Positions 30,656 through 60,700 of a DNA stretch of 64,000 bases are shown here, piece after piece (position 1 is the first letter of the stretch; each line of letters begins with the position of its first letter). The stretch covers positions 19,661,501 through 19,725,500 of the forward strand of contig NC_088303.1 of the NCBI RefSeq assembly GCF_032854445.1, given 5' to 3'. Source of the stretch: Liolophura sinensis (Eukaryota > Mollusca > Polyplacophora > Chitonida > Chitonidae). The position numbers and the translations under genes were made by a program. The notes beneath the pieces were generated by a model. That model was not told the DNA's origin. It saw nothing but the letters and a program-made list of their open reading frames with translations, and ran no database searches.

Positions 30656-30774
30656 CTATGATCTTTGGTTCCGACAGGAATGACAACATCGTGTCCCATA
30701 GAAATTGTGTCTGCAGACGTTGTGTTTGGGCACCAGATCACACCAACTGAATTGGTCAACACATCTGTAAGGGG
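30656..30774 (-). CDS. ADAMTS16/18: ADAMTS exon 19: PLAC domain and stop
   Basis: Acceptor TTGTTGTAG; phase 1 to the stop TAG at 30656-30658. Encodes the six-cysteine PLAC module: [21 protein letters not shown] and CCHSC. The protein ends NQRS. PLAC closes the C-terminus of several ADAMTS and related matrix proteins. Confidence 0.95.
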
Positions 30775-33700
30775 CTACAACAACAACCAATGACAGCATG
30801 TTATATAATACAGGATGAAACAGAAATGACCAACGACAGGGTCCGGCACGGTCCAGGACACAATTAAGGTAAGTCATAACATGTATCCTTCAAACAAAGG
30901 GATTAGCAGCTGTTACCTGTACATCTAGAATTTGGTTTATTTATTTATTTATCTACATTATTGGGACTTCATGTTTTACTCAAGAATCTATCGCTTATAC
31001 GAAAGCAGCCATTTTTATGATTGGAGAAAATTAGGGTGCTTGCAGTCACGAGGCCGATTCTCACTTTCACTGCGGCAATCTCTTTAAACTTGAACCAGGT
31101 TAATCTATATGTCGTAGGTGGGGTTAACTTTTTATTGGTTTCTTCTGTCTTTTCTTACTGAGAGGCTCTGGGTTATTGTGCCATTCTGGCACGCTAACCA
31201 TCTACAGTAGGCCATCTCAGCAAGAAGAAACAAATAAAATAATATGTCTTATATTATAACTGGGTGACAACACTCACCTGCTACGGGACAGTGGCCCGAG
31301 TTGCAGTGCTGTGACTCTATTGGTTTGCCCAGCCAATCACAGCCTGTGGTCCTGCGATGATTACGCATGTCCCGGCAGTAAACTAGTCGTGTCTGGACAC
31401 CATTCCCACAGGTGGCTGAGCACTAAGGAGAGATAAGCAGAAAAGCTTCCTTTCACAAACTGTATGGTTCTAATATATGTGCCCATGTATAATATTTAAG
31501 ACAACGGACTTAAGCCCAGCCGAGGTGTGTCAGTTACCAGGTGAGCAGGCTTGTGTGGTACGCATCACTATCTACTGACAGATGTGACTGTACACTCACC
31601 TTAGATCATGCTGAGATGTACCAGTCACCAGGTGAGCAGGCTTGTGTGATACGCATCACTATCTTGTCACAGATGTGACTGTACACTCACCTTAGATCAT
31701 GCTGAGATGTACCAGTCACCAGGTGAGCAGGCTTGTGTGATACGCATCACTATCTTGTGACAGATGTGACTGTACACTCACCTTAGACCATGCTGAGATG
31801 TACCAGTCACCAGGTGAGCAGGCTTGTGTGATACGCATCACTATCTTGTGACAGATGTGACTGTACACTCACCTTAGACCATGCTGAGATGTACCAGTCA
31901 CCAGGTGAGCAGGCTTGTGTGGTACACATCACTATCTACTGACAGATGTGACTGTACACTCACCTTAGATCATGCTGAGATGTACCAGTCACCAGGTGAG
32001 CAGGCTTGGTTGGTACGCATCACTATCTGGTGACAGATGTGATTGTACACTCACCTTAGACCATGCTCAGATGTACCAGTCACCAGGTGAGCAAGCTTGG
32101 TAGGTACGCATCACTATCTGGTGACAGATGTGACTGTACGCTCACCTTAGACCATGCTGAGATGTACCAGTCACCAGGTGAGCAAGCTTGGTAGGTATGC
32201 ATCACTATCTAGTGACAGATGTGACTGTACACTCACCTTAGACCATGCTGAGATGTACCTGTCACGAGGTGAGCAGGCTTGTGTAGTACGCATCACTGTC
32301 TAGTGATAGATGTGACTGTACACTCACCTTAGATCATGCTGAGATGTACCAGTCACCAGGTGAGCAGGCTTGTGTGATACGCATCACTATCTAGTGACAG
32401 ATGTGACTGTACACTCACCTTAGACCATGCTGAGATATACCAGTCACCAGGTGAGCAAGCTTGGTTGGTACAGACTTCTTGTAGAGGTACGTGGGATGGC
32501 TTGGAGATGTGGGTACAGTAATGACTGTCCACACTCCGTAAGGCAGTATCCGTCTTCCCATTAAAGCTACAGCGCAAAGCTCTGGTTTTCACGCCCATCC
32601 CACAGCTGGCTGAACACTATCAAATACAGGTACATGAAATAAATACTTGTTAACTTCATGTGGCACAAAAGTATGAACAGTATTCATCACTAAAACTAGT
32701 TTAAAAAGTTGGACTTGATGTCTATACAGAAAAAAGAAAATGTTTGAGAATGACATTAACCAAAATAATTAAATAATTTAATAAACACAAAAAACTGCCT
32801 CCAGTGTTCCAACCATGACCTCAAAAACAAATTTTAGGGAAAACTGTTGCTAATTTCAAAGTTGTGTATTCCTGTTGATATTACCAAAAAAAAAAAAAAT
32901 ATATCAAAATGTATTAGAAGTGTAAAAATCAAAAATGAAACAAAGTGTCATGTTCAGTTTGCAAGGAAACAAATCTTAAATTATCACATTACTGGTACAT
33001 ACACTGATGCATAACACAAAAAACCATGTAAAACTTTAATTTTCTCAGGCTCAAGTTTTGTGATCGTGCCGACATTTCATGCTACGGCTGCGAGGAATGA
33101 CGTGACAGACAGCTATTGACATGCCCATGGTTGTATGACCCGGCAGTGTTCAACACAGTCTGTGCTCTTGAATCAGTCAACCGGCATAAATACTCTTAAC
33201 ACAACCATAGCGTGTCTGATGAATGTTAGGAATTTAACACCATGACCACATTACTTTAATATCACATGGGTTTTTCCACTAGTTGTAAAACAGTGGAGTA
33301 TGGAAAATCAGGCTTCTCAATAAAAAAAGTTCATAGAACTTTCAATTTATTTATTTGTTTATTTGATTGGTGTTTTAGGACATACTCAAGATTATTTCAC
33401 TTATACGACGGCAGCCAGCATTATGGTGGGAGGAAACCTTTGGAATCCTGGGGAACCCACGACCTTCTGGCAGTCCTTCCCACCTTTAGGATAAGGGGAA
33501 CTCAGTTTGTTCTTAATTTGCTGATGGCGAGGCCTGAGGTTACCATATTTATTTATTTATTTTTGGTGTTTTCGGACACATTTCACTTACACAATGGCAG
33601 CCCGCATTATGGTGGGAAGCAACTGAGCAGAGCCTGCCAGAAACCCACGACCCTTCGCAGGTGGCTGACAGATGTATGTGCTCTACCACAAGTGCATGGG

Positions 33701-36700
33701 CTCACTCTCGCTATAGTCATCACTTAACTTTTATGTCACAAAATATAATACTTCATAAATCTGGCTGATTTTGCTTATGGTGACATCAGCTAAATTAACA
33801 TGTTCCATGTCTTATGAACATGTCTTATTCTCAAATGAATGAATACTCCCTTGACACATGCCAGCCAGGTGAGATATAAATTAAAACTTAATTCCAACAT
33901 TTAATACAGCAATCTCTTAAACAGGTAAGTTTATATTTTGAATTTCACATAAAGTGAAGGCCCCGTGTGTAATAGACCTAGGCACCAGGGGTATAGCTTG
34001 GCTGACTTCTGGGGTTTATAGGTATTTTGTTAGCCTGTCAGTGGGTAGAGGGCAGGGATAATTACCTGAACAGGTAGGTAGATTACAATCGGTAAGGCAG
34101 CCAGGTGAACCAGTGATCCCTGGCAGGTTAAGGAACAAAACTGTTTGGTAACAAAACCAGCTCATGTTTAGCCCGAGGGGCGGGGGAAAATGGCTCTGCT
34201 AGGCTGGGGTCAGGTATAGCTTTACTGGCCAGGAATCTTACCCCATTCATCCCATCTACCTTAGCTCCCTTACATTGTCTGTTCATGATACCCTGATCTT
34301 CTATACCTTATACTGCAGGTAATTATATAATCTCAAAAGCCAAAAGCCAGGAAAAAAAAGTAAATATATTTTCCCTGTATCATTATTATGCTGAGAAGTT
34401 ACAACATGAGAGCAAAAAATAGGATCATTCAGTTTCCTTCTTCAGGTGAAACAAACTGATTACACACTGATGATACAAAAACAAAGGCATTTAAACTGTG
34501 TCTTTTTTCTTTATGTATAAAAGAGACACATGAAAGTTTGAAACGTGTCATATGGTTAAACCATGTCTTGTTTTTTTTTCTTTTTTCACAAAATTGTTGG
34601 TTATGATTTAACCACTCTTTGTGCAATAACAATATTAAATGTAAATGTTTTACTTTTTTCCATTTAGTTTTCATTGTAAATTGGTTGACTATATGCATAC
34701 CTGACAAAGGGACCTGACAATGATTAAACTTAGATTTCATAGCACGGCTAACAAAGAGCGTCCTTGTAGCAGATATACGTAGAGTAATTATAACACACAG
34801 GCAAGGTATGCATCCGTGATGGAATTGTGCTTTACATTCACGCAAAACCTGAGCTCAATATGTGCAGTAATTCATCTGAATGCACCAGAGAAGTCATGAA
34901 TTCAATAAGTGGGCTTTTTTTGAGTGGACATTGGCTTAGCCAATTCCAGCTAATTTTTTTTGGCATGCTGAGAATTTGTCATGTCCCTAAGAGGAATCCA
35001 CTTGACCATATAAGGCCACATTATAAACTACTGAATTAGTTTAGTGTACAGTGAATTATAGACTTGATCACTGAGAACCTAGACTGGTACCTTGCTCCAG
35101 GAGGAGACAACCCACTGGTAAGGATCCTTCTGACACTCGGCCAATCGGCAGGGTTTCTCACTGACGTGACGAGGTAGATGATTACAGGCCGAGTCCGACA
35201 AGGATTTGAAACCGTATGATGTAAGACTTTGGCAGCTTAGCTCCCGGCTGTGAACTCCGCTACCACAGCTTACTGAGCACTACAACAACAATGACAAGAA
35301 TTTAATTGTTTATTTATTTATTTTACTTATACGATGGTGCCCAGCATTATGGTAGGAGGAAACCAGGCAGAGCCTGGGGGAAACCCATGGCCATCCGCAG
35401 GTTGCTGGCAGACCTTCCCATGTACCGCCAGCATGTACATCCCATATACACCTCATCTATACCTCACACTGAGGTCTACACCTGAACAGTAATAAGCAAA
35501 CAAAAAGAGGCTGATATTTTGTAAAAGGTAATTATTTGAGTTATTCTAAAGTAACAGCAAAAATCTGACTGGATTTAGTCTGAGGGATGAATTTTTTGCC
35601 AAAAATCTCTACAGCCTATGTCTTTAACCGCTTTGGTGTAAATGATTAACATCGGCGGATTAGCACATGCCAATATGCCAAACACCAAGCAACCATCCAG
35701 CCTGCATAAATTCGTTAATACCATTTATAAACCATAAGTTTGTGCAATGGAGAATGTTTTTGAAACAACCAGATAATCACTTTTATGTACAAGAATAACA
35801 AATGATATTTAACAGTGACAAAATGATTGATGACAGGTGAGAAACACATGAGATCTGAATGTCTCTTTACTGTGCATTCTATAATACTTATAACCTGCCT
35901 TGGTTTAAAACAGTGGACAGAAATAAGTAAAAAAAAAAGGCTCACCTCTGACCATTCTCCAACAACCCAAACTCCGGGACAATCTTGTGTATTGCACCAG
36001 CGCCTCCTGGTGGGCCTAGGCTGACGAGAACACATCCTCTTGTCCACACGACGGTCGACTTTGGATGAGAGTTTCTGTCGACAGCGCACCTTCCTCACCT
36101 GTTTGCCTCCCCCACAGGTACGGCTGCAGGTCCGCCACTCGTACGTCACCCACCTGGTGATAACACAAAGAATAGAGGTCATTTCAAGGTGATTTTTGTT
36201 TTGTGGGATGTAAACGCTGGCACACTCGGTCTTGCACACTCGGTCTTAATCCATAAACATGCAAGCAGCAGTATTACAATAGCTACCCATTAAGTTCGCA
36301 ATATTTAGCCCACCTAACAAAGGATGACACGGATTCCCATTTTAAGTCCATCTCAGTTCTCGTTTCAAATATAGCATCCACATAATCAAACTCAGCAATC
36401 AATCTGGCCTGGTTAGAGTAATTAATTCAATACTTCTGTTTAACTTTCTTTAGATCAATCTCGAGTTTTAGATTGTGTTACTCTTATTTAAAGATTTAAA
36501 ATGAACTTTTTCTATACTAAAAATCTGAAGTTGCACATGGAACAGGTCAAACATTAAGATAATACTCTGATACTCTTTCTAATATGAAATAGCTTAACAC
36601 ACTTTTAGAAATAAAACACTCCTTGACACAAGAAAATACGTACTTTTACATACAAAATGCAGTTTTACATACACATTTGCTCTTTTACATACTAAACACT

Positions 36701-39700
36701 CTAATGCGTACAAATATTCAATTACTACCAATACACTGTTTCCTTTTCCATACAAAATGATATACCGGTACTATTTACATCCAAAAAAAAAAAAAAATGA
36801 AAGAAATTTAAGTGAAATATTCGTGGTTACAACATAAAACACCAAACAAATAAAACAATAAATAAATAAATAAATGTTCTTTCATATATAATCTCTGTTT
36901 GACTCCACCATACCTTGGTTCACAAGGTTGTGTGTTACAGGCCACAGAGCCCTCAAAAGGTCGTCGTTTGGGGTCACACAGTCCAGGGTTGACATGGTAA
37001 CGCTGGTCCAGCCAGCATTGTGCTCTCTGGGTCTGCTCACCTGGGAAACAGCAACAACAACAGAATATTCTAACTCTTGGATTTGCATGTTTAGAAAACT
37101 AGAAGCCTTTCCAAGAAAACAACATCTGAAGTAAGTTGTAAGCAACCAATCTTCTTGTTAAAATACTTTTCTTGCATGAATTTTGACAGAAGAATGTGTT
37201 ACAAGAAGATAAAAATCTATTCACGCACATAGCCTCATTGGTGAAGTCAAGTGCTAGTCAACTTCCATCAGAACCCCTGTTCTGTGAGAAAACTGAAAGG
37301 TTATCATACCTCCTCCACAGGTTTCGCTACAGTTGAACTTTATGGTTCTCCAGCTGTAATAATGTCTGGGTGGGGTGGGGCGTGGCGTGGGGCGGGGGGT
37401 GGTCTTGCGTGGGGCGGGGTGGTCATACTGGTTGGGATGATGAACGCTTGGAGGTGGCTGGTAGTCGTTGTGAGGAGGGTAATGATTGGTGGATCCGTCA
37501 TCAGGCAGAGGTGTTCTCCGTGTAGGCAGGGTGTAGTCATACAGGATACCTGGGTTACGCCCCATCACCAATACCTGAGGAGATTGGGAAAAAAACTGGT
37601 GCTTTGATTTTTTTTTTTTTTGCATTTCAAGCAGTTATATGCTATTATACGGAATGAAATATGTATTTCATAATATATCTAGCAATAATTCAAGACCTTG
37701 TTCACTTTGAGATACTTACTAATTTCCAGTTTGGATCAGTCACATCATAACATTAAGTACATCTAACAGCATGAGGCAGTCTGCAGCTGATCAGTTGAAT
37801 AACATAATGAAGACGTAATGTACAGAAATTAGCAAGAGTACTCTTCCATGAATGACATTTTCGCTGTTAAAACTGCTCACAGCATGATAACACTACAGAT
37901 AGTCTATTTTCCATATTTGACTGGTATTTCACATCATAGCCAAGATGGTGGTCAGTTTTCTAGGTGGAGTAAACCACTAACCTTTGGCAAGTTACCAACA
38001 AACTTTTTCACATTTGATGTACAAATATGCATGTACACGACATTGGTGGAAGAGATGTATTTTCATATTTCCTTGAAAACACCTGCCTTCCACCAAGATG
38101 TTGTGCATGAGCACATATCCATGTACCACACGTATGTGGGACAGTGTGTCAGTAACTTGCCAAAGATTGGTGGTTTATTCCGAGTACTCCTCAATCCTAT
38201 CACTAAAACCGACCACCACTGTATCAGTGAAACATTCACAAGTATGCTGTTTATGAACAACAATGAAGGAAATAAATAACTCCTTGCTCCAAGCCTGAAA
38301 TGCTGATCAGTCTCACCACATGTCTACCTGTACTGCAGCCAACAATGTTAGATGTTCACAGGCATGCATAATATATCTCACCTCAAGAACTATATCCTGT
38401 TTGAGGGGCCCTTTAGCAACCAGGGACTCCTGCATGTTCTGGGTGCGTCTGTACTCGAACCGCACCCCACCCAGAGTGTACACCCCTGGGGGGTCCATGT
38501 TCATGTTACCATTCAGGTAATAATTTCCGTAGATGTCCCGAATTGCGACGTAATTGTGAGAGTAAGTTTCCTCTTTGATATGAATGTGGCGTGAATGCTT
38601 TGGTATAACAGTGATGGGAAAATAAGCTGAAAATAAAAAGGCAAGTGGCAGATGAGTGATGTGGTATAGGATGTGCACTGGAAGACATGGACAACAGCAG
38701 AATACAAATTTGTATCACATGATGTACAAGATTTTACTGTCACAGATGAAAGCCTTGACTCAAAGCAATTACGAATACCTGACAAGATTCATTGTAATTT
38801 TAATCAAAAGAAAGCAGGTTTAACTTGTTTGTTTGTTTTAAGCTGAACATAATTTTGGACATTATTTTTCTCATTACAGGACACAACCTTCACGTGCAGT
38901 ATGTCAGGGAGGTTTCAATGCCTGTCTATAGTGCCATGTCAAAGACACCAAACATGACATCCATCCAACCACAGTTTGTTGACACTAGGCTGACCACACA
39001 CCAGACATGACACCCCACTCAGTCACAGCTTATAGAAACTAGGCTGACCAAACACCAGAATTGTCACCCCACTCAGTCACATTTATACACACTAGGCTGA
39101 GCATATATCAGACATGACACCCCACTCAGTTACATATTACAGATACTATGCTGACCACAGATGACACCCCAGTCAGTCACAGTTTAAAAATACATGTACT
39201 TTAGTGACTACTATTTGGTTATTCCCTATTCTGGGTGGCAATTGAGTAATGGTACAAACACACATGCATTAATTTCAAACATCATTTCAGTTGACTGTTT
39301 TAAGTGATATTTGAGAACACTGTCAGTACATGAGGCTTTCAAACCAGTGTTCTATAAGTATCCATTCACTTACTGCGAAGGCGAGGTTGTGATCGGAACT
39401 CTCCCTTGACAACTCGGCAGGTAGAGTTGTCTCCCCTACATACACCACAGCTGTCCTCTTTGGCATCAGAATCTATGATCATATCACAACCGTAGGACTG
39501 CAACAGAAGGAAATACTTTGATACAGGTAATGGCAAACTGACATACAGATAAGCACACCATGCAAGTGGTCTTCAAGGAAACATTTATAGAACAAAAAGT
39601 ACCACAGACTGCTAGCTTATTCTCACCAAATTCCCACAAATAATGAAAGCAGGAAAGTCAAGGCAGCTTTTCGGGCGCCCAAGTTATACATAGTGTGAGT

Positions 39701-42700
39701 GTGTTTTCAAGTTTAAGTGCGTTTTCTGAATGAATGTTAACTACAAAAATTACCATAAATACATCTAAACATAGAAGGGATTAAAACGACAAATCCTTAG
39801 ATGTAAATTTTCTACTACATTTCCATTATTACCAAAGTACTCACAGGTTTCTAAACATGATACACGGTTCTCAATAAAACTACTGTCTTCTTCATTAATT
39901 TCAACTCAGCTTTCATTTCATTAACAAATACCATAGCTATTTTTGAACCGTCTACCCCTTAATAAATGTAAGATTTATCAGAATACCGTTTTTGGTGCAA
40001 ATTACATTTGTTTAAATGCCACACTGAAATCATAACCTAACACATGCAAGATGAGCACTGACATCAGGCACCATCACCAAGGTAACCACTATGACTGAGT
40101 GTGTGTGTAAGATTAAAGATATTTACTCAAAACTTTTTCCAGGGAGTAATCAAATATAAAATCACACCTGGTTGTTGAGATCTGACACATACTCCATTAG
40201 AGTATGACAAATCTCTTCTGATCTACCGGAGGAATTGATGGCCTGGTTGTGAAGGGGGGCAGGGGGTGGGGGGAGGGGAGATGTTATAAAATGAGAGGCA
40301 TAACACTTATAAATGTCTTAATATGACCAGAGCCCTGGGCCAAATACACTGTGTTTACACACCAAAGTAGGTGTCGCATACTTCACGCTACTTGAGAATG
40401 ACTAGATCCCAAGAGCTGGCTATGCAAATAGAGAGGTGGCTATCTCAAGTGGGGATTGAGTAAGCCGTGTATGGTAAATTGCTCCAAGGCCATCTTCAGG
40501 TAACAGGTCCCCCTCCCCCTACCCATGTAAATTTGGCTACATATCCACAGGTGTGACATCTGACATAGCCAATGTGAATATTTCATACCTATATACCCGT
40601 CTAACTGTTCATCAAGCCACATGTTACAGGTATTTATGTGCACTCTGTATAGGTACAACAGCTACAATAATCTTTGGTGTATGGAGAAGTCTTGTTTGTA
40701 CATTATTACAATTATCTGTTTTTAATCTAAAAATAAAACAGTACGTATGGCTTATACTGTTGGTTTAATTGTTTGGATTTAAACAAGGCCATGAATGTTA
40801 TTTTCTAAAATGGTGTCTCATCCTTGTAACAGGCTGGTCCCAATGCTGACATACCACACTGCCTCACTGTTTTCCTTTGCTCATTCAAGTACACAAATGT
40901 CTTTCTCATCTTCACCAAACTATCTGCGTCTGTCCTGTTTTTAATTGCTCTACATTACAATTATTATCTACGTCAGAGAAGGTTATATTTTTGATGCCAT
41001 TTTTTTGTCTGTCTATCTACAACTTTATTGAAAAAGTTATGCAACGATTTGGATGAAAATTTCTGCACAGGTTGGCCTAGCTTGGGAGGGGATACAGGAA
41101 TTTTTCGAACAATTCTTCACTATCAAGAGAATTAGTACAGAAATGCAACTTTAGCATTGTTTCTTTGTTTGAAGTTTCCACAGCCGTTTGTACATTTTAC
41201 TGGCTGCATGGGGGTAAAGGCTTGCACTTTTGGAGTGCCTTCAAGTTCATGATGTGAAGACTCTAAAGTTATCTTCCATGCAATTATCGATCAGCCATCT
41301 TACCTTACAGGAGCCCTCAACACAGACATCTGGGCTGTACTGATTACAGGGGGTACCATCCTGTACCTGATTGGACAGTGCTGTGATGAAGTCATAGCCT
41401 AGGGCCTGGCAGTACAGCTTACACTGGTCACTCACTGTAACAAAACACAGCGCCGGCATTTAGCAACCACAACTGTACACAAGAAAGTTAATGATGGATG
41501 CCCATAAGCTGGCAACTAACGAATGTGCCTTTAATGAGTGTCCACGATATTCAACAAAAGGAAAACATTTCATGGAAAATTTAATAAACATTTAGCTCAC
41601 ATGTACAGTTAGCTACTTTCAGAAATATTCATGAGTACAGCACAAAACAACAATCAACTATCAATAATTATAAATTATTGTGTATGAAACTTTAAATACA
41701 GTGCCTGAAGTAAACCATTTTGAGTCCAGTGCAGGTAAATGTAAGTACAAAACACAGATTGATGAAATCAAAATACTCACCTTGATTAATTTTTGTGTAT
41801 GGTCGCCACTTGTAGTAGCTGCCATGGAATGGTCGCCTATCATAACGGCGACATTGTAGTGTTCTAAAGTCTTCTTTGCTAGTATCACAATCCTGTCAAC
41901 AAACGCAAAGTTGATGATAAATAAATCAAAGAGTGGAAACTAATACAAGCTTCATGAATATGTCACAACAGGCGGCCAATTCTTGCCACAATCAAAACAA
42001 TATATCAGTACAAATTAATGTTTCAAAAAATAACCCATGTCTGTAGGCAAAAAAGCATTCCACTGCAGGTAATAAACATTAAGTTGTAAAAAACAAATAA
42101 GCCTATATCATTTGCTTGATAAAAAATCATCACCATAATGTTTTTTATCATAAATACTACACACCCGACCCCCAACCCACCCCCCATCACCACTCTGACA
42201 ACTGACAATATATCTGAGATCACATACACTTACATTCATATAAAAAATCATCACCGTAATGTTTTTTATCATAAATACTACACACCCGACCCCCAACCCA
42301 CGCCCCATCACCACTCTGACAACTGACAATATATCTGAGATCACATACACTTACATTCATATAAAAAATCATCACCATAATGTTTTTTATCATAAATACT
42401 ACACACCCGACCCCCAACCCACCCCCCATCACCACTCTGACAACTGACAATATATCTGAGATCACATACACTTACATTCATATAAAAAATCATCACCGTA
42501 ATGTTTTTTATCATAAATACTACACACCCAACCCCCAACCCACCCCCCATCACCACTCTGACAACTGACAATATATCTGAGATCACATACACTTACATTC
42601 ATATAAAAAATCATCACCGTAATGTTTTTTATCATAAATACTACACACCCAACCCCCAACCCACCCCCCATCACCACTCTGACAACTGACAATATATCTG

Positions 42701-45700
42701 AGATCACATACACTTACATTCATATAAAAAATCATCACCGTAATGTTTTTTATCATAAATACTACACACCCAACCCCCAACCCACGCCCCATCACCACTC
42801 TGACAACTGACAATATATCTGAGATCACATACACTTACATTCATATAAAAAATCATCACAGTCATATTTCCATATACTGGTAGTGCTTTTTAATAAAATC
42901 CAGGACCAGTTCTTCAAAAATGAATGAAACGAAACACCCACTTGTATCATAATACCAGTCGCATTCTAATACAAACTAAATGGCACTTTAGTCTAACAAA
43001 TGGCCCCAGGTCTATTCTGGTAGTAACTATGTCAATCACGTCCAGCACAACTGTCACATTTGTCCAAATCATTTACTGCTCACATGACTGATAAGTCTAC
43101 ATATATTTCAAACACCCAATAATGAGTGTGACAGTCTGGACCAAATTAGTCTGCCAACAACAACTTCCTGTTCAAATTTATTCCCATCTGCCATTCAACA
43201 CTCTATTAAAGCTTCTGTCCATGCATTTAACTTTGATTTTTAGGGCAAAATTTGATCTAGTAGAATTGATTACTTTGGCTATGTCTACTTTCACAGTAAT
43301 AAGCTTGACAGGCAGACCGACGAGCTGGCCAGACATTTCACATGGGAAACTTTCCTTAGTTTTTCTCCCAGAGAAATCTACAAATGGCAGACAAAGAACT
43401 TTATGTCTTCAGCAATATATAACCAGGGTATCTGTATGGTGCAATTTCAAAACATTTCAACTTGATGAGAACCGACTTGTCAAAACAAAATGGAGGAAGA
43501 GCTTGAGGTTTGCTTCCTCTGCTAGCAATACAATAAGTAGTCTTTGTGAAGTCCAGCAGGCTACTTTCAAAGTATTATTTTACTATAATCTACATTTACC
43601 AGTACATCAATATTTAAGTAAACTTGTAAATATTTACGGGTGTAAAAGCAAATTTGCTGAAGAAGCCTCCTGACATGTATCTCTATACAAATCGTATGAT
43701 TTTCTCCATCTGTCACGGCTGAATTACTAGTAATCAGACCTGATTCAACATTCACAAATAGTTCACAGATCAATGCACAGAATGATGTTGGCTTAAACTG
43801 ATTGTACCTCCACACTTATAGTTCTGCAAGTTTCACAGAATACTGTTCATTTTAATTATATGGCACTTCGTTTACTGACAGCTCATTCAAGAACTTTTGT
43901 CACATGTACATGTACTTTCCTGGCTTGATTTTCAAGAGCTAAGGTTATAGCTTTGAATTTCAATTATTCACGTTCACAAAAACAGATATATACACATTTC
44001 GCTTATTTGGACAAAAGATACTTTAGTACCTATACTTAACACATCTTGACATTCTAACCATTTAAAATTAATTACAGTGTGCATCTAAGTGGAGAATAGT
44101 TAAAATAAATGGCTTGCATATAATTAAATCAAAAATACTGCAGAACTTCAAACTGAGCACCTTTATTCGGATTGAACTTCTATCTATTCAGTACACCATG
44201 TACATGAAGATCAGAGGGTTACAGACTCCTGTCAATGCTGTTAACTAGGTGTATTTCATATCCATGGAATATATTTCACGCATACTACAAGCACCATTAT
44301 GTTTCAGACCCAGTTTTCCAGTTGATTCCCAGGGTAGAGGAACCTGTCTCCCTGGTCAATTAAGCCTGGGGTGGGTCTGTCTGGCCCTACCCCTGCATGA
44401 TCAGGTCTTTATAGAGGCAGTCAGGTTAACTGGTTGTCACATCTGGTTCCTGACCAAGTCCAGATCAGACATGACTTACAACATGTACATGCCTCTCTCT
44501 ACCAGACTACAGGAGGCCAAGCCTGGGAGCTAGAGCTGTCTGCACTTAACATCAGCATCTACACGGGATGGGAAATACATCTATCATATACTGGGAGTCC
44601 AAAACCCCATGAAATATTTACACAAATTAACTGGCACTGAAAATTCTCCTTGTTCAAAACAGAATTCTTAAAAAAAAAATGCTGGGCAAATGTATATTTA
44701 TTTTGCAAATTTAGAGTCTACATAATTAAATTGTGTGAGAGGCAATTCCTTTATTACCTAATTTATCTATCTGACTGAGAGTTGACAGCCTACTGTGGAA
44801 TGTTTGAATCATACCACCACCGTCAGTTTAATGGGTGAGAGAATCCAGAGTAAACCACAGATTGTTGGCAAGTAACTGATGAACTTTGCCACATGCTGTA
44901 TGTGATGAACAGTTTATCGTCTGCAGAGCCAGCTGAAAAGCAAGTGGTTCCTAACAAACTTTAAATAAGCTAACACCTACATGTTTAAAGTCGACCCAGA
45001 CATCTCCCTCATTGTTACGCAGCTCAATACAACTCAATACAAGTCAATACAATGTGAGATTCACTACAAGGTGGGCAGTAATCTGTCCCCGTTTTTATGA
45101 TGTTGCTGTTGTTGAGTGCGTCTAAAGTACTCTTTCAATGAAGAAAATCCTCTTACTTTGTATCTTATTAGTAGTTATGGGTTGTGTTGTGTGTTTATTC
45201 ATACTTTTGTATCATATGTTAATTTTACTATACGATGAATATCTAACGACCCTGGGTTGACGAGGCACGTGGCGGCAGGGCCTCTCCGATAGATCGCCCG
45301 CCCGCCACAGGTATCACAGGCACAGGTAGCAAATCAGAAAAAACTATAGACATTCATACGAAGAGTGAACTGGAGATTTTGTTTTCCCTTTTGTTCATCG
45401 TAATTGTATTAAGAAATATTTCAGTTTGTGTTATAATCAGCAGTGATATTTTCAAATTATTAACAACGTTTGGGGCTTTGTTCCAGTCATGCTATAAACA
45501 TGTGAGTTGTCCGCCATCTTGACATTTGTAAGTTTGGCAAAGCCTCAGCCTAATTTCAATTTTCATGTGTAAGCAGAGTAATTTGTGGGTTTTTATTTTG
45601 AAAAAACTCATTGACAAACATCATAACAAATGGTCTAAACTGAAAATTACAGTTTGGTTATCCTATAACTGGAGCAGACAAAATGAGGACAGACCATGTG

Positions 45701-48700: not shown

Positions 48701-51700
48701 GTCACTTTTATGAAAGAGTTTCCATTATATATATATGTAAAAACACAAAACATACATTCTGTTTTGTATTTATTTTTTTGGTCTTGTTACCGTAATGTTT
48801 TAGACACAGGTAAATTCTGTCTTCATCAACAAAATTCTTTTCACAGATAAAGTCCATGAAGTTAATATACCTTTCCGGCACCACAGGAAGTACCATCAGC
48901 AGCAGGTAAATACTTGGTTTGGCACAGGTGTCCTTCACTCTGACACCAGAGATGCTGACAAAGGTTCTGAAACAGTGGAAAGTAATATAAAACTTAAAAG
49001 TCTTGGAGGATGTCTGAAAGAAATAAACTGTGACCCTGATCAGTCACCTCATTGGTAAGATGGCTATCACCTGGTTTGCTTTTTAAAATTTAACACATAC
49101 AAGGAACAGTAATTAGACATATCAAGATATGGTGTCCTAGTGCAGCACGATGACCCTGGAGCTCTGCACTAATGCAATTGCCCAGAGCCCAAGTTCAACT
49201 CATGACCTTCCTCGAAAAGGTCACCCAGCAGCCTGCAAATGGTCATCGGTTTCCTTTGGGCTCTGGCCAATCTCTTTTCAGCATAATGCTGGTCTTCATC
49301 GTATAATTGGAACATTCATGAGTAAATGGCTTAAAACCAAAATCAAATAAATACATATCTGTAAATAAAATGGCAAGATATGTTTCATTAGCATTAAAAA
49401 TGCTATAAATTATCTTTTACTCAATGATCTACCTGAGGAGGACTTTGGTGGATTCATTGTTTGCAGGCCCTCATACTGAAGTGAGGACAGTTTGATCACA
49501 TACAGTCCCAGTGTCATATGTTCATGTTTTCTGTATTTTTTGAACAGTTTCACTCAGTGTGATTAAGCACAAAACTAATGTGTGCTAAATTCAGCAGATA
49601 ATAAATATCATTATTGATAAGTTTGAAACAAAAACATTTAAAGTAATTTAGTTCAGTTTGTAAAGGCCTATATAGTTTGTCATGTGAGGTATAATTTATG
49701 CTGTTGCAAAGACAAAGAGAAAAAAATTGAATGCTTAGGTGAGGTTATGCCCTGTTGTTTTGATTTGCATAATAGTGAAAGAATTTAATTAAAATTTCAA
49801 ATGAGTTCATTTGACATTCCATACATTGGTTACCTGAGGGTGTGACCTAAGGGTGTGTCACACGAGGGTTTGTTATATAAAATGTCAGGATTAAACCAAC
49901 CTGAGCTGCCATTGTTCTCAACACCTATTATGTTTAACCAGCTCATACTGCCATTGTTTTAAACATATGCATCTTTAACACTCCACTCCTTATCATGCTG
50001 ATAATACTCTAAATGTCTGTATCTGCTCTGCCTTTTAACACCTTTTGATTGTATTTACAGAACCATAAATTAACCCATCTGAACTGCTAGCATGCACAGC
50101 ACAGAAAAATGACAAATTCCCCCCATCCCTCCCCACCTGAGAATATCATGTTCCCAGCACCTGCGACTGTTGAAGCTTTTCCATTGACATAAAAACAAAA
50201 AAAATGTAACACATACAAAGTGTAATACATTTATTTTGTAAATTTCATCAGTGCAGGTTTCTGAAACTGTCATGACATTTTTGTACTTAAAAATTAATAA
50301 CTGCATGTCTGGATGATCAAACAGAAATCATTCAATCATATGTGAAAAAATCCATCAAATCTAGCAAAAAGGCATGTGATAGTAGAAGGTGCCACACTCA
50401 TGCATTAGTAATTTTGTTTAGAATTTGACGTGTGAAAAACAGACTCACTTTTCCATGTACAAGATGGTCAGCATCAGGTGGACTTCACCTTTATTGATAA
50501 ATTACTGGATCATCTTTGCCAAATTTTTTAGCTTTAAGCTTTTACAGGTACATTGTACATCTCACACTCACCTTTCACACATCGCAGATACAGTGTTTAG
50601 ATCATTTCCCAAACAGTCAGGTACATCCAGTGACTTTCAGCTTACAGGTACATTGTAAATCTTGCACTCACCTTGCCCACATTGTGGATACAGTGTTTAG
50701 AAGATTTCCCAGTCATGTACATCCAGTGACTTTCAGCTTACAGGTACATTGTAAATCTTGCACTCACCTTGCCCACATTGTGGATGCAGTGTTTAGATCA
50801 TTTCCCAGTCAGGTACATCCCAGTGACTTTCAGCTTTACAAGTACATTGTACATGTTGCACTCACCTTGCCCACATTGTAGATACAGTGTTTAGATCATT
50901 TCCCAAACAGTCAGGTACATCCAGTGACTTTCAGCTTTACAGGTACATTGTACATGTTGCACTCACCTTGCCCACATTGTAGATACAGTGTTTAGATCAT
51001 TTCCCAAACAGTCAGGTACATCCAGTGACTTTCAGCTTTACAGGTACATTGTACATGTTGCACTCACCTTGCCCACATTGTAGATACAGTGTTTAGATCA
51101 TTTCCCAAACAGTCAGGTACATCCAGTGACTTTCAGCTTTACAGGTACATTGTACATGTTGCACTCACCTTGCCCACATTGTAGATACAGTGTTTAGATC
51201 ATTTCCCAAACAGTCAGGTACATCCAGTGACTTTCAGCTTTTACAGGCACAATGTATATGTTGCACTCACCTTGCCCACATTGTAGATACAGTGTTTAGA
51301 TCATTTCCCAAACAGTCAGGTACATCCAGTGACTTTCAGCTTTACAGGTACATTGTACATGTTGCACTCACCTTGCCCACATTGTAGATACAGTGTTTAG
51401 ATCATTTCCCAAACAGTCAGGTACATCCAGTGACTTTCAGCTTTACAGGTACATTGTACATGTTGCACTCACCTTGCCCACATTGTAGATACAGTGTTTA
51501 GAACATTTCCCAGTCAGGTATATCCAGTGACTTTCAGCTTACAGGTACATTGTAAATCTTGCACTCACCTTGCCCACATTGTAGATACAGTGTTTAGAAC
51601 ATTCAAGTACATCCCAGTCAGTACATCCAGTGACTTTCAGCTTTATAGGTACATCTCGCACTCACCTATCCTTGACTTTCAGGTACATCCTGTGACTTTT

Positions 51701-54700
51701 AGTTTAACAGGTACATTGTGTGCACTCACCTTTCCCACATTGTACATGCAGTGTTTAGAACCTTTCCCAAACAGCCAAGCACACTGCTGATCAGCATCAT
51801 AGATCTCGCCAGGTAACTTCTGAGGAAAACGTAATCTGGACACCTGAAGAGAGCTTTTCCACAAACATTTTGCTTGCTGTGTACTGAAATATAAACAAAC
51901 AAGATCAGAAATTCTCCTGGAAACTGCAAACATGACATGCAATGATCAGGCAATACAATGTAGGAAAACTGCATTATTTTTTTTCACTGAAATATAAGAC
52001 ACAATTTGAGAAATCTGAGAAATTCACACATGAACTACCAACACAGCATATAATAACCCAATGTTGAATAAACTGGTGCAAGTTTCTTTACAGTCTACAT
52101 CAATTTTGCTATAATAAGTATGTACCATTTTCCAACATATTCCTCTGAAAATATGTGTACAAGGACTGTCCCAATCATGTTATTGTACTTTAATACGACG
52201 CTGCCTCATTAAATCATGATGTTAATAGGGTTCAGGCAGACAGAGCACTCTACTCAGTCAAGGACAAAGACTTATTCCTAATTAAGCCTTCCCCAAGCAA
52301 ACGTTAAGACATTTAGCAGAATCACGAAGCAGTCTTAAAGATAAGTCAGCTACTACTTTATTAATTAATGAAGTAGTATTTCAGAAATGTTCTAAAAATA
52401 TTAAAGAAATTCTACACCTCTTATATCAATAAAAAAATAAATAGCAAATGATGGTCAGTACCTAGCCACTCTTCGTCGACACAGCCACCGTCTTTCAGAG
52501 GTCCTGCTAGTCCTTGTCTTTGACCTGAATTATGCCTAGCTGGCTGTACCGACATTAGGGAATTTACCAATCACAGCAGTAACTTCTGATTTATAACATA
52601 CTCTTTCATGCAGATTTCGAGAAAATATTTTCGTAATAAATTTGACTACGCTATGGAAAAATAATGCCTAACAGTTTTCTTCAAGCAATGACTCTTTCGA
52701 GGCAGTTTTCCTGCCATAAGGGCAGACATTCGCTGTTCCCTGTTTCATAAATGTATGATCCAAAATGCATCAGTTTAACAATTAAACTGCAAAATCTGAT
52801 TTATTGCATCGATATCTGTCTATTCACTATAAGAAACTACACTGACAATCAAGAGCTAATAGTTTTTTTTTTTGCCGTGACAGACAGTTATCACATCATC
52901 CTTTCAGCGCTAGTGACTGGCCTAGTTCATAAGGGCTTCTACAACATGGCTACTCGGAGTGAATTGTCCGTCAGTGCAATATCCCCAATACTGAACTTCA
53001 TTTTCTCAGCTTTCAAAACTTTATAGAATTTTTACATATTTTTCTGTTATAACTATGTCCTATATCCTTTTTTACATTTTTTGAAGTAATTGTGTCTTCT
53101 CTTCAAGACCATTTATTGTGCTAACATTTTGACTATGGTAAGAAAGTTTATTTTTACCCTTAGGAATTAAAAATCAGCACTCTACTTCAAATATGAGCTC
53201 ATGAATAATACCACAAGTTAAGATTAAGTCTGACTTAAGTCTAAGACAGCTTTGTGATCCTGGGGCCGGCAGTGGTACATTTATAGCTGGATTATATAGC
53301 CATAAACCATAAAATTGGAAACTTACTGTAAAAATTTAATGAGGTAGTCACGGCTACAGCTGGACCATTTGAAGATGCCTCCCTTGCCCCCGGTGGTCAG
53401 TTTGGGGGACATGATGGTGCCTGTGGCGTGTGGGCACATATCCTTCCCTCCATCATGAAACATACCAAGGCTACCTCCAATATAACAACAGACATACTCT
53501 GGTACTCTGAATAACCAAGATGCTCAACCAACAGTTAACCCATATAACAACAGACATTCTCTGGTACTCTGAATAACCAAGATGCTCAAATAACAGTTAA
53601 CCAAAATAACAACAGAGATACCCTGGTGCTCTGAATAACCAACATGCTCAAATAACAGTTAACCAAAATAACAACAGACATTCTCTGGTACTCTGAATAA
53701 CCAACATGCTCAAATAACAGTTAACCAAAATAACAACAGAGACACTCTGGTACTCTGAATAACCAAGATGCTCAACCAACAGTTAACCCATATAACAACG
53801 GACATACTCTGGCACTCTGAATAACCAACATGCTCAACCAACAGTTAACCCATATAACAACGGACATACTCTGGTACTCTGAATAACCAACATGCTCAAC
53901 CAACAGTTAACCCATATAACAACGGACTTACTCTGCATAACCAACATGCTCAACCAACAGTTAACCCATATAACAACGGACATACTCTGGTACTCTGAAT
54001 AACCAACATGCTCAACCAACAGTTAACCCATATAACAACAGACATACTCTGGCACTCTGAATAACCAACATGCTCAACCAACAGTTAACCCATATAACAA
54101 CAGACATACTCCGGTACTCTGAATAACCAACATGCTCAACCAACAGTTAACCCATATAACAATGGACATACTCTGGCACTCTGAATAACCAACATGCTCA
54201 ACCAACAGTTAACCCATATAACAATGGACATACTCTGGTACTCTGAATAACCAACATGCTCAACCAACAGTTAACCCATATAACAACAGACATACTCCGG
54301 TACTCTGAATAACCAACATGCTCAAATAACAGTTAACCAAAATAACAACAGAGATACTTTGGTACTTGGAATAACCAACATGCTCAACCAACAGTTAACC
54401 CTATAAAGTTCACCTGTAAAACTTAATTGTTTAAGGATTTCATTTGTGGAAGCTTTTCCCTTAAGACAACTACCCTGTAAGAACATGAACATGAGTATAC
54501 TTCATCAAAGCACAAGCTTAGGTTTCAGGAATAAAACAACAGAAAATATTATTTATTTTATTTGTTTCTTTCACTGATGTTTTACGTTGTACTCAAGAAT
54601 ATTTCTTATACACTGGCGGCCAGCATTATGGTAGGAGAAAACGGGGCAGAGCCCGGGGGAAAGCCACAAGCATCCGTAGGTCACTGACAGATCTTCCCAC

Positions 54701-57700
54701 GTATGGCAGGAGAGGAAGCCAGCATTAGCTGGACTTGAACTCACAGGGACCGCATGGGTGACAACAGAAAATAATACACTTATATCAATATACTGCTTTG
54801 CACAACAACAGTAGCACTGTTTTTTTAACATACCAAGAATATGCAAGCTATGCACACGTGTATATTTGTATATGTATTTATTTCACTTGAACTCATGACT
54901 ATCCTAATTTTTTCAAGTTTTAGGACAGATTTTAGTAGTGCTGCAAGCAAAGAATTACATTTCTCTCCCACTTTTTTTAAAAAGTAAAGATATGATTGTT
55001 CATTAGACAGACTAACCGTGTGAAAAAAAAGAAACTAAATATGCCCACTACAATTACATGTATGATGGCTAAAAACAGCACACCAGGTGACACAAAAGAG
55101 TTAGGGTAATTCCTTTTCTTGACAGCAATGTTCCTAAATTACAGGTGACAGAAACCATCGCACATTAAGAACAAATTAAAAGTTACCCCAACACAAATAC
55201 ATTATCTCTAAAAACTGATTGATAAGATAGCCTACATTTTCTGTTGGCAGATGTACATCAACCATTTTGTATAAAATGATTTCTGTTAAAAGACAAAAGA
55301 CAAACATCTCCAGTGTATATGTTGATGTGACAAAGCAATACATCTTCAGTGTCTTATTTTTACACAATAAAAAAAGAAATATCCCTTCTCTGAAACACTT
55401 TTGAGATTATTTCTCGGACTATGGAAATGCAAAAAATACATTTTCATTTTTTCTTCAGGCTTTTAGAAAATAATGACTTTCATCTTTCCTACAGAAAGTA
55501 ATACCCTGATATTTATGTTACTTAATCTTCCTCATATTCACTGTAAATGCCAACTTGGGTGGTCAGAGTTGCTGCCAGTGTCTATATGTGACCACCATGA
55601 AGATTGCATTTCTCTTCACGCATTTACACAGTTATTAGCACCTCGCACAAAAGCTGCCTTAATGCTTGCTCGACGGTGAGAAACCCTAGTGAAAAGATGA
55701 ACTCATTTTAATACACTAACACTTCAAAGGCCTCACACTTTATCAATTTTCGCAAACTTAATCTTAGCTTTTGCTCTTTATATTTACCACACTATATAGT
55801 ATATCTAAATTCCTGTCATCCAAAGAGCAGCAGAGGTGCACATTAAACTTATCAATACAGACGCATTAGCACTAAATATCAAAGAGAACAAAGATGTCCC
55901 TGTGCATGATATTGTTGAATGGCGATGGAGTGTTAAAACAGGCTACTCAGAGCACAGTATGATTATCTGCAGTAAGTATTACAATGTATAACCCCTGGGT
56001 TTATGGGTCTCCGGCTGGAACCCCCAGGGTGCTGAAGCTAGGGCTTATAGCCAGACATCCCCACAGATGAGTATATAGTACTACCATAGCTGTGGGTGGG
56101 ACACAGGATGTTGGTCCCTCTACACGGACAATTTAGTCAAATATGACAATTTCATACGGTAGCATCGAGACACAGAATAGCATATAGTATACGGTCTGTT
56201 TTGTTGATCAAAGGCCTTGCAGACTGTCTAGTACTGCTACTGCCTTAAATCTGGGTGGTAAAATAATTCCAGATTCAAAACATAAAGAGAGAATTAAGGG
56301 CTGGAATGTTAAAATCTGAGTCACTAGGTCAGTTTCATATCCACACCTATTACTACACTACACTGGACCACATACAGTCGGTAGATAGGTTGGGTGATAC
56401 GGGAATTTATCTAATAGGCATGATAGGTCATCATGATGGTCTATGGTCAGAAGAAACCTAGCATACGATTTTGGAAGAAAACAATTTCAGCAGTAGCTGA
56501 ATTAGCAATTAAGTGATGAATTCAAAAATAGAGATCTTTAGTTAGAAGTCACAAGTTCATCTTTGTAACTTCAACATAGAATTACTTTACCTACTAAAGT
56601 TACAAGTTGAACTTTTCACTGAAAGTCTCTAATGTTTCCTAATCCAGGCTAAAACGTGCCCATAACCATTAATATAATCATAGCTACTTGCTACTGTAAT
56701 TCTTCAATATTCTCACATGTTTACAAGATGTTTATTCAGATGTAATTTGAGGGCATTATTCTATGTAGACTGACACACACTTTTTGTGAAGTCCTGAAAT
56801 TTCAGCAGCCCAAGCCCTATATGTTTTGTGTGCAAAATCAAATTGAAGGGTGGAAAATCAAACTGAAGGGTGGAAAATCAAATTGACGGGTGTAAAATCA
56901 AACTGAAGGGTGTAAAAGTCAAAACGAAAATTGCTCTTTCAAGGAAAGCTTTAATGGCTGAGGAAATGTAGTGCATGCACAAGTATGTACTCTATCATTA
57001 CCTAAGCCTGAGGTATTAGATTTACCGCTACTAAGAATACAAGGTGCTTAATTCTCACTCACTTATGCCCCATTTCATGAGCCACTGTATATCCTGTGGC
57101 CAGTCCTGTATCCTCATTGATAGAACAGCTCCTGGACGAATCACACATCCCCTGGATAGGGGCATAACCTGTGTCAGAGAAAATAATCACATCATAGAGT
57201 AGAGACATCACATATCCCCTGGATAACAGCATAACCTGTGAAATAAAAAACAATCACATCCAACAGGGGGACAGGGGGGAAAACTGTGACCGTGACAGCA
57301 AAAACAATCACATCATCCTCTCCACAGGGGTGGAACCCGTGACAGAGAAAACAATCACATCGTCCTCTCCACAGGGGTGGAACCTGTGACAGAGAAAACA
57401 ATCATATCGTCCTCTCCACAGGGGTGGAACCCGTGACAGAGAAAACAATCACATCGTCCTCTCCACAGGGGTGGAACCCGTGACAGAGAAAACAATCACA
57501 TCGTCCTCTCCACAGGGGTGGAACCCGTGACAGAGAAAACAATCACATCGTCCTCTCCACAGGGGTGGAACCCGTGACAGAGAAAACAATCACATCCTTC
57601 CCTTTGATACGGGTACCACCTGTGACAGAGAAAACAATCATATCGTCCTCTCCACAGGGGTGGAACCCGTGACAGAGAAAACAATCACATCGTCCTCTCC

Positions 57701-60700
57701 ACAGGGGTGGAACCCGTGACAGAGAAAACAATCACATCGTCCTCTCCACAGGGGTGGAACCCGTGGCAGAGAAAACAATCACATCGTCCTCTCCACAGGG
57801 GTGGAACCCGTGACAGAGAAAACAATCACATCGTCCTCTCCACAGGGGTGGAACCCGTGACAGAGAAAACAATCACATCGTCCTCTCCACTGGGGTGGAA
57901 CTCGTGACAGAGAAAACAATCACATCGTCCTCTCCACAGGGGTGGAACCCGTGACAGAGAAAACAATCACATCGTCCTCTCCACAGGGGTGGAACCCGTG
58001 ACAGAGAAAACAATCACATCGTCCTCTCCACAGGGGTGGAACCCGTGACAGAGAAAACAATCACATCGTCCTCTCCACAGGGGTGGAACCCGTGACAGAG
58101 AAAACAATCACATCGTCCTCTCCACAGGGGTGGAACCCGTGACAGAGAAAACAATCACATCGTCCTCTCCACAGGGGTGGAACCCGTGACAGAGAAAACA
58201 ATCACATCGTCCTCTCCACAGGGGTGGAACCCGTGACAGAGAAAACAATCACATCGTCCTCTTCACAGGGGTGGAACCCGTGACAGAGAAAACAATTGCA
58301 TCGCCCTCTCCACAGTGGTGGAACCCGTGACAGAGAAAACAATCACATCGTCCTCTCCACAGGGGTGGAACCCATTGACAGAGAAAACAATCACACTGTC
58401 CTCTCCACAGGGGTGGAACCTGTGACAGAGAAAACAATCACATCGTCCTCTCCACAGGGGTGGAACCCGTGACAGAGAAAACAATCACATCGTCCTCTCC
58501 ACAGGGGTGGAACCCGTGACAGAGAAAACAATCACATCGTCCTCTCCACAGGGGTGGAACCCGTGACAGAAAAAACAATCACATCGTCCTCTCCACTGGG
58601 GTGGAACCCGTGACAGAGAAAACAATCACATCGTCCTCTCCACAGGGTTGGGACCCGTGACAGAGAAAACAATCACATCGTCCTCTCCACAGGGTTGGAA
58701 CACGTGACAGAAAACAATCACATAATTCCCTTTGATACGGGTACCACCTGTGACAGAGAAAACAATCACATGGTACCCTTTGATAGGGGTAACACCTGTG
58801 ACAGAAAAAAGCCCTATATTTGGTAGGGATGAATTCAGTAACAGAGAAAACAATTACATCACGCAGTACAGTGATAAGGATGGAGTTTCCCTTACCCCAG
58901 TCGTACAATGCTTGCCCATCCCTTCACATCATCCTAATATCCTAACCAACATCTGAATTTTTTTAAATGGTAGGCCTACATTATTTTTGCTTGAAGGAAT
59001 TCCCTAACCAGTTTATTTTTTACTTGCACAGCACCCACTAGCCTTAAATTTACTAAATTTCTTACTATCTGTGGCCTTTTAGAGTACAAAAGAATTAAAA
59101 GAAAATTTATTTAGTGCTTTAACATGATTAAGTAATTAATAAAGTACCTGTAGTTAAGTGACTCACAAGAAGGTATTTCCAGCTCTGATAAAGAGACCAC
59201 ATCTCTAATGCCCCTAAAAATTAATCTTAATCAAAATCTACTGATAATGAATTACCTTGATCAACAAAGCAGAAGGTAAGTCCCCAGGCCTCAGGCCTTT
59301 GTGCTCAACATCTCACAATTACAAGGTATGACATTATCTGATCAAAGGCACATATAAACTTGTATCAACCTTACAGTCTTGAATAACAGCTAGCTTTGAA
59401 AACAACCTTAAAACTGCAATTTCTCTTATATTCAGGTGTCTGTTATAAATTGTAATTCAATACAGGTATCTTTAGATTTGAAAAAAAAATAGGTGTTTCC
59501 GGAACAGCCTTGTAGGCTGTATAACTATGGCGCTGTAGAAGTGATGAAAACCTTTTCAATCTGAGGTCATGTGATATAAACCTTGTATCTATGGGCTGAT
59601 CTTTATCTGGGGATATCTTTACACCATATCAGCATATACCCCCTGATCACATGCCTCCAAGGTTGCCATGGCTACACCCCGAGTTCTGTCTCATATACTA
59701 CAGAGCTTCTTTTGGAACGGTGTCACTGTCAGTGGGACAGTGGGAACAAAGTTAATGTTCACTTTGCTTTAATCTTTGTCAACACATCCTCACAAAGGAG
59801 TGCGAATGAGAAGACAAACTGGATGTGTGTTATAAGCGTGTCTGTGTTCAGTGAAGCGCGGGAGGCCAGTGGCCATGGAAAGCTGGCTAACAGTGGAGAT
59901 ACGGCCACACCTGAGTGACATCAACCAGTCATGTGACATACACATTCTGCCAACCACCCATCTGCCTTTTTCTGGACACAATAGTTGAGTCCAGTCTTTC
60001 AGTTAGCCATTTAAATCATAAAACATGTAAAGTATCATCAATATTGTTATCATATTTACTTGATTTTAAAAACAGTTTAAATTCAAACTTTAAGAGACAG
60101 TAAAATTACAGGTAGCAGCAAAAATTTAAACAATGAAATAGGTTAATAAACAATGGTAATAATTAGATTAATATCTCTGAAGGTGAACGCAGTGATATCA
60201 TTTTATCTGATGAAAATACAAAAACATTTCACATAGCCTGCTTCATCAATCTCCAAGGTTAACCACTGCATTTATACCACCGCCATTCTTTCTACTCATT
60301 TCATTATCATTATCAGGTATTCAGGATGAGAAGTATGCATGTAGGAGGAATCATCAGGAAGGTACTTTTTCATCTCGCGCCGGGATAAGTCCTTGTCTTC
60401 GAAATGCTGCTGGCACTGAAGTATTATGCTGAACACACCAGACAGGACATCCTGCCCATTCACACTGCTATGACACCGTAGCCCACTCAGTCCTGTTTCC
60501 TTGTCGTTTGCTCTAACTTCTCAGTGCTGAGTGCCAAGTGAGTCAGCATTGTGCAACGAGTACCATATTTGAGGATGAAAACATTGTCGAGATGATGTGT
60601 GAAATCATTCTCAGTGTAATAAGATTCTGTATAGTAAATGACAACACGCAAAAGTGTACTAAGCTCTTACCTAGAGTATCACAGGGTTGGTTTTTATGAG

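Follow-up and report, generated by a model that had tools for sequence, protein, structure and literature searches.

What would lead a single gene to carry several tandem-repeat arrays, each seemingly built from a piece of an exon and the splice site next to it? The question is raised by an ADAMTS gene of the chiton Liolophura sinensis, which lies in the 64,000-nucleotide stretch of DNA analysed here (the window, on contig G000:C9) and for which an earlier note had described such arrays. The genome assembly (GCA_032854445.1) was built from PacBio HiFi reads at 14x with a mean read of 8.3 kb and comprises 632 contigs (PMC11068029); it was first published as that of Liolophura japonica (PMC11068029), the species being later corrected to L. 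sinensis (PMC12441733). The evidence presented below indicates that three arrays of this gene are very probably mirages, i.e., tandem duplications that spanned a splice junction, then grew into arrays and were tolerated through their edge copy, and that such arrays are widespread in the chiton.

Anatomy of the gene and its arrays

Reconstruction from open reading frames and splice sites recognised 17 exons on the minus strand, with Pfam matches to Reprolysin, ADAMTS_CR_2, spacer1, TSP1_ADAMTS and PLAC:

30659..60827, minus strand: ADAMTS gene (metalloprotease, cysteine-rich, spacer, TSP1 repeats, PLAC), from open-reading-frame and splice-site reconstruction and Pfam
60827-60671, 57168-57063, 53470-53327, 51883-51730, 48966-48871, 48673-48513, minus strand: 1st to 6th exons recognised
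41892-41781, 41434-41304, 39497-39374, ~38626-38400, 37574-37310, 37040-36914, minus strand: 7th to 12th exons recognised
36153-35946, 35279-35091, 32616-32419, 31422-~31278, ~30774-30659, minus strand: 13th to 17th exons recognised

The reconstruction did not recover the 5' exons and probably also missed a small exon lying between 48.5 and 41.9 kb; the exon numbering is therefore not absolute. Short G/C-rich repeats within a coding exon (37368-37424) code for a proline-rich linker separating ADAMTS domains, and an exact 14-bp tandem duplication (36220-36247) lies in an intron ~70 bp upstream of the acceptor of a TSP1 exon (36153).

Tandem Repeats Finder (TRF) called six arrays with periods of 47-121 bp in the gene, covering 18% of it, and none at the coverage threshold used in positions 1-30000 of the window. 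The arrays are as follows, a slash marking the splice boundary:

31531-32471, minus strand: array A, 91 bp x10.3; exon end, donor AAG/GTGAGT and ~40 bp of intron
32418 (authentic), 32327, 32236, 32145, 32054, 31963, 31872, 31781, 31690, 31599, minus strand: first intron base of each array A donor
50532..51780 (TRF 50532-51654), minus strand: array B, 101 bp x11.2
53480..54406, minus strand: array C, 62 bp x15.1; adjoins an acceptor, unit not junction-derived
57168..58870 (TRF 57290-58771), minus strand: array D, 47 bp x31.5; acceptor array
42119..42859, strand not assigned: array E, 121 bp x6.1; in mid-intron, the nearest exon ~230 bp away
38945..39159, strand not assigned: array F, 54 bp x4; in mid-intron, the nearest donor ~190 bp away

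Array A occupies most of a 996-bp intron; its opening unit is the authentic exon end with its donor (CTAAG/GTGAGT), and nine further donors follow at exact 91-bp spacing. The unit of array B consists of the final ~55 bp of exon 51883-51730, the donor AAG/GTGAGT and ~45 bp of intron, with the authentic donor at 51730/51729, a partial copy (TAG/GTGAGT) at 51665 and eleven exact array donors from 51568 to 50571. In array D, the unit is made of the acceptor TTTTCTCTGTCAC(A/G)G and ~25 bp of exon 57168-57063, the final copy being the authentic acceptor at 57168. The last base of array C (53480) lies ~10 bp upstream of the acceptor AG that ends at 53471. Arrays E and F were absent from the earlier note.

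The repeat units as copies of splice junctions

When aligned to the junctions that they adjoin, the units of three arrays scored far above shuffled controls: 85.5 for A (shuffled maximum 23), 134 for B (z = 37.6 against dinucleotide-shuffled units) and 31 for D (shuffled maximum 19.5). These are the arrays that had been derived from the exon 17 donor (91 bp), the exon 5 donor (101 bp) and the exon 3 acceptor (47 bp), and the derivation stands for each of them. A fourth array (62 bp) had been placed 10 bp from an acceptor and counted with the others; its position is as described but its origin is not, for against the exon the unit of array C scored no higher than shuffled units (fraction at least as good, 0.34), good as the gapped alignment looks by eye. 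Junction-derived arrays thus number three of the six in the gene. The authentic junction is less similar to the array units than these are to one another in B (identity 0.718 vs 0.873), the corresponding values in A being 0.932 and 0.929.

Across the 609-Mb genome, all 51 matches to the units of A-D lie inside their own arrays or at the immediate edges of these. Since each unit is confined to its own array, the arrays arose separately and not from a dispersed element; an origin of the units from such an element or from a paralogue was ruled out by this search. The proposal of a repeated origin from junctions within the gene is thereby borne out, with three independent origins and each unit unique to its own array.

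An assembly in which repeats were collapsed or falsely expanded might be suspected, given its read depth of only 14x and its gaps elsewhere. However, the mean HiFi read of 8.3 kb exceeds the longest array (at most ~1.6 kb), and the units differ by several per cent in ordered patterns that false expansion would not give, which makes an artefact of this kind exceedingly improbable.

A further consideration is how often junctions would be caught by chance. The earlier note saw no reason for ordinary minisatellites to centre on junctions. This is too strong, since a random duplication of ~90 bp in this gene would span one in about one case in ten. In a random-seed model wherein the gene stays workable, i.e., with seeds of the observed lengths placed wholly within introns or across one junction, 0.57 of the six arrays would be expected to span a junction. 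The three of six observed exceed this prediction and count against chance placement, with a probability of three or more of P = 0.013, a value that does not allow for the gene having been chosen for its striking look and is therefore weak evidence for anything special about the gene.

Splice sites within the arrays

Joined to one another, the first four exons recognised (60827-60671, 57168-57063, 53470-53327 and 51883-51730) form a single open frame, and joining of exons through the edge copies gives one open ADAMTS frame through the protease and cysteine-rich parts. Premature stops result from the use of any of the nine non-edge donors of array A (donors 2-10), of the seven further donors tested in array B and of every intact upstream acceptor in array D. 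Thus, among the sites tested in these three arrays, the open reading frame is kept by the edge copies only. An extra intact acceptor in array D is found at 57235 in the window, 67 bp upstream of the authentic one (TTTTTTATTTCACAG/GTTATGCTGTTATCCAGGGGAT), and its use likewise leads to a premature stop.

Arrays A, B and D are best read as mirages. Each array would have originated when a segment of 47-101 bp, lying by chance across an exon-intron junction, was duplicated in tandem, and would then have grown by unequal exchange or slippage. The copy at the exon-side edge—the first in a donor array and the last in an acceptor array—would still join intact coding sequence to the intron, whereas the remaining copies would become intron and be free to multiply; splicing would presumably use the edge copies. 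Duplications of junctions would be tolerated because one edge copy keeps an intact exon joined to the intron.

Selection on splicing had also been suggested in the earlier note. Such selection might maintain the arrays if U1 were recruited by the additional donors, or if these served as decoys and so adjusted the splicing of the introns. Nine array units of A and all eleven aligned full-length array units of B do retain AAGGTGAG(T/C). However, the 9-column donor window of A is matched in invariance by 41/91 windows and is not exceptional, and in B, where 5/93 windows are as invariant as the donor, the units had been collected by the motif and so selected for an intact donor. An apparent constraint on the donors (minor-allele frequencies of 0.012 and 0.000 against ~0.05) was accordingly undone for A by the sliding-window controls and was affected in B by the way in which units were selected. 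In the region of array D, CACGGG outnumbers CACAGG by 24 to 8, most units being without the acceptor AG, and a second ADAMTS gene, described below, has units with GTAAC in place of GTAAGT. With donor windows not clearly more conserved and a premature stop from every internal site tested, maintenance by selection appears very unlikely.

Junction arrays across the genome

The entire genome was searched for three copies of a donor word at gaps of 65-95 bp, with reversed or other words as controls. At array spacing, donor 9-mers are ~3 to 10 times as frequent as control 9-mers: triple-spaced AAGGTGAGT gave 378 matches against 62 for the reversed word, their single occurrences being about equal (6095 vs 6514), and CAGGTAAGT gave 504 against 149, while a third, composition-matched control word and its reverse gave 34 and 78. 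For the acceptor word TTTTCAGGT, the counts were 118 and, for its control, 60. Match counts are inflated by long arrays, and distinct arrays were therefore counted by hand among the matches listed, yielding 19 for AAGGTGAGT over roughly the first third of the genome (11 and 2 for the two control words) and 19 for CAGGTAAGT over roughly the first quarter (6 and 0 for the controls).

Twenty arrays from these donor-pattern listings were examined at their 5' edge. Six adjoin an exon with a Pfam domain, the end of which is copied in the unit: the domains are antistasin, TPR (below the curated cut-off), CAMSAP, DNA-PKcs (E 2e-15), EGF and angiotensin-converting enzyme (ACE; E 7e-26). In eight others, a long open frame without a confident domain ends at the first donor and is copied in the unit. 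The remaining 6/20 were negative or not classifiable, one of them being an ABC-transporter exon with downstream repeats that are not copies of the exon. Outside this sample of 20, a second ADAMTS-like gene bears both an acceptor array and a donor array, at two TSP1 exons, some units of the latter being those with GTAAC:

G000:C8 ~11.628-11.635 Mb, minus strand: acceptor array at a TSP1 exon, 82 bp x3.4 (L022)
G000:C8 ~11.628-11.635 Mb, minus strand: donor array at a TSP1 exon, 54 bp (L037/L096)

The look at other exons that the earlier note had proposed thus bears fruit, and its view of a phenomenon confined to one gene, produced by a local mechanism that duplicates junctions, gives way to one in which arrays of like design occur across the genome. 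The ADAMTS gene of the window is a minisatellite-rich gene that carries three junction arrays of a process widespread in the chiton genome.

Minisatellites cover 8.4% of 28 ADAMTS-type exon loci outside the window and 1.4% of 30 kinase loci; ADAMTS-type exon loci (L016-L045) are thus six times richer in them than kinase exon loci (L046-L075), the figure for the gene in the window being 18%. Among the ADAMTS-type exon loci, one sampled exon only (L022) carries a junction array directly on it, and the base rate of ~1 per cent of junctions is therefore a rough estimate. Two pairs of donor arrays have a common unit: one pair lies 11 kb apart (G000:C2:25030462-25032424 and 25043162-25044611) and the other 120 kb apart (G000:C3:23490369 and 23610692), suggesting a later duplication of the whole array-bearing segment.

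The excess of donor 9-mers in arrays could be taken to mean that a genome-wide mutational process favours splice donors, e.g., through transcription-linked breaks, R-loops or motif-dependent slippage. The triple-spaced counts and the hand-counted arrays point in this direction, and the acceptor word shows a smaller excess. However, the excess in distinct arrays is only ~2-3 fold against one of the controls, a part of it could reflect a concentration of arrays in genes, and detection by exact matches favours any motif that is kept intact, with few control words used. Such a process is, on balance, rather unlikely. The excess is nonetheless compatible with a genome in which duplication is biased towards junctions, and pure chance placement may be an incomplete account of it; junctions may be targeted by duplication or may simply tolerate it.

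A bolder possibility, to be entertained tentatively, is that splice junctions are the preferred birthplaces of minisatellites in chitons and perhaps in other animals, genome-wide, and feed the gain of exons and introns, with chains of potential mini-exons such as the following:

G000:C2:18579300-18581300, minus strand: some eight mirage units of 102 bp, following an exon that looks coding (L097)

Each unit here has an acceptor TTTTTCAG, 45 nt of in-frame sequence (VSDLNAAERNLALNE) and a donor GAG/GTAACG, with stretches of 57 nt running from GT to AG between them, and the locus can be read from its sequence as a chain of potential in-frame mini-exons. The coding exon gave no match in Pfam or PDB searches; we take it to resemble a NEK-type kinase lobe.

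Comparison with known repeats and implications

According to a paper that cites the original work, mirages have been known in amphioxus since 2002 (PMC3087553); splicing is undisturbed where tested, their length is unstable, and it has been proposed that new introns may stem from them (PMC3087553, PMC3902484). In these cases (Adh3, the globins BflGb6 and BflGb9, PGBD5 and troponin C), as in the chiton, a minisatellite-like unit straddles an exon-intron boundary, donors as well as acceptors are affected and many units have splice signals. In the chiton, tandem units spanning such a boundary derive from an authentic junction in A, B and D, though not in C; donors (A, B and L096/L037) and acceptors (D and L022) are both involved; and many though not all units retain splice signals, the donors of A and B being kept and D having mostly CACGG. 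The periods overlap, with 10-72 bp in Adh3, 60 and 108 bp in PGBD5 and ~150-160 bp in the globins (PMC3087553, PMC3902484). Unlike those of amphioxus, the chiton arrays belong to Mollusca and not Cephalochordata, exceed the globin cases in copies (10 to 32), number three in one gene and occur genome-wide. A literature search found no report of mirages in molluscs, although one elsewhere is possible.

Other repeats with splice sites offer weaker parallels. That introns can be gained through tandem genomic duplication is accepted (Rogers 1989; reviewed in PMC3443670), and such duplication likewise puts extra splice sites into a gene; it makes a new intron from an exon, whereas in A, B and D an existing intron grows and none new is predicted, the tested internal sites giving premature stops instead of a new functional intron. 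Introners and introner-like elements are also repeated sequences with splice sites, but their copies are dispersed over many loci, whereas the whole-genome search found no dispersed copies of units A-D and each chiton unit is confined to one array. Ordinary intronic minisatellites, of which E and F are examples in this gene, share tandem growth and unit variants with the junction arrays, whose unit differs in holding exon sequence and a splice site. The alignments of A, B and D far above shuffles, the like design in other genes and the amphioxus precedent all support the reading as mirages, and the ADAMTS gene appears to be an instance of this known, little-studied kind of repeat, apparently widespread in the chiton.

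Mirages have so far been curiosities of a few amphioxus genes; with many of them in a mollusc genome, and in conserved genes, they are no cephalochordate oddity. The interesting question becomes whether junctions are favoured or well-tolerated sites of duplication. The chiton offers a large natural set in which to see how genes withstand having splice sites duplicated by the dozen, and its arrays let one ask whether mirages supply new exons and introns, as repeats of this type could do for introns.
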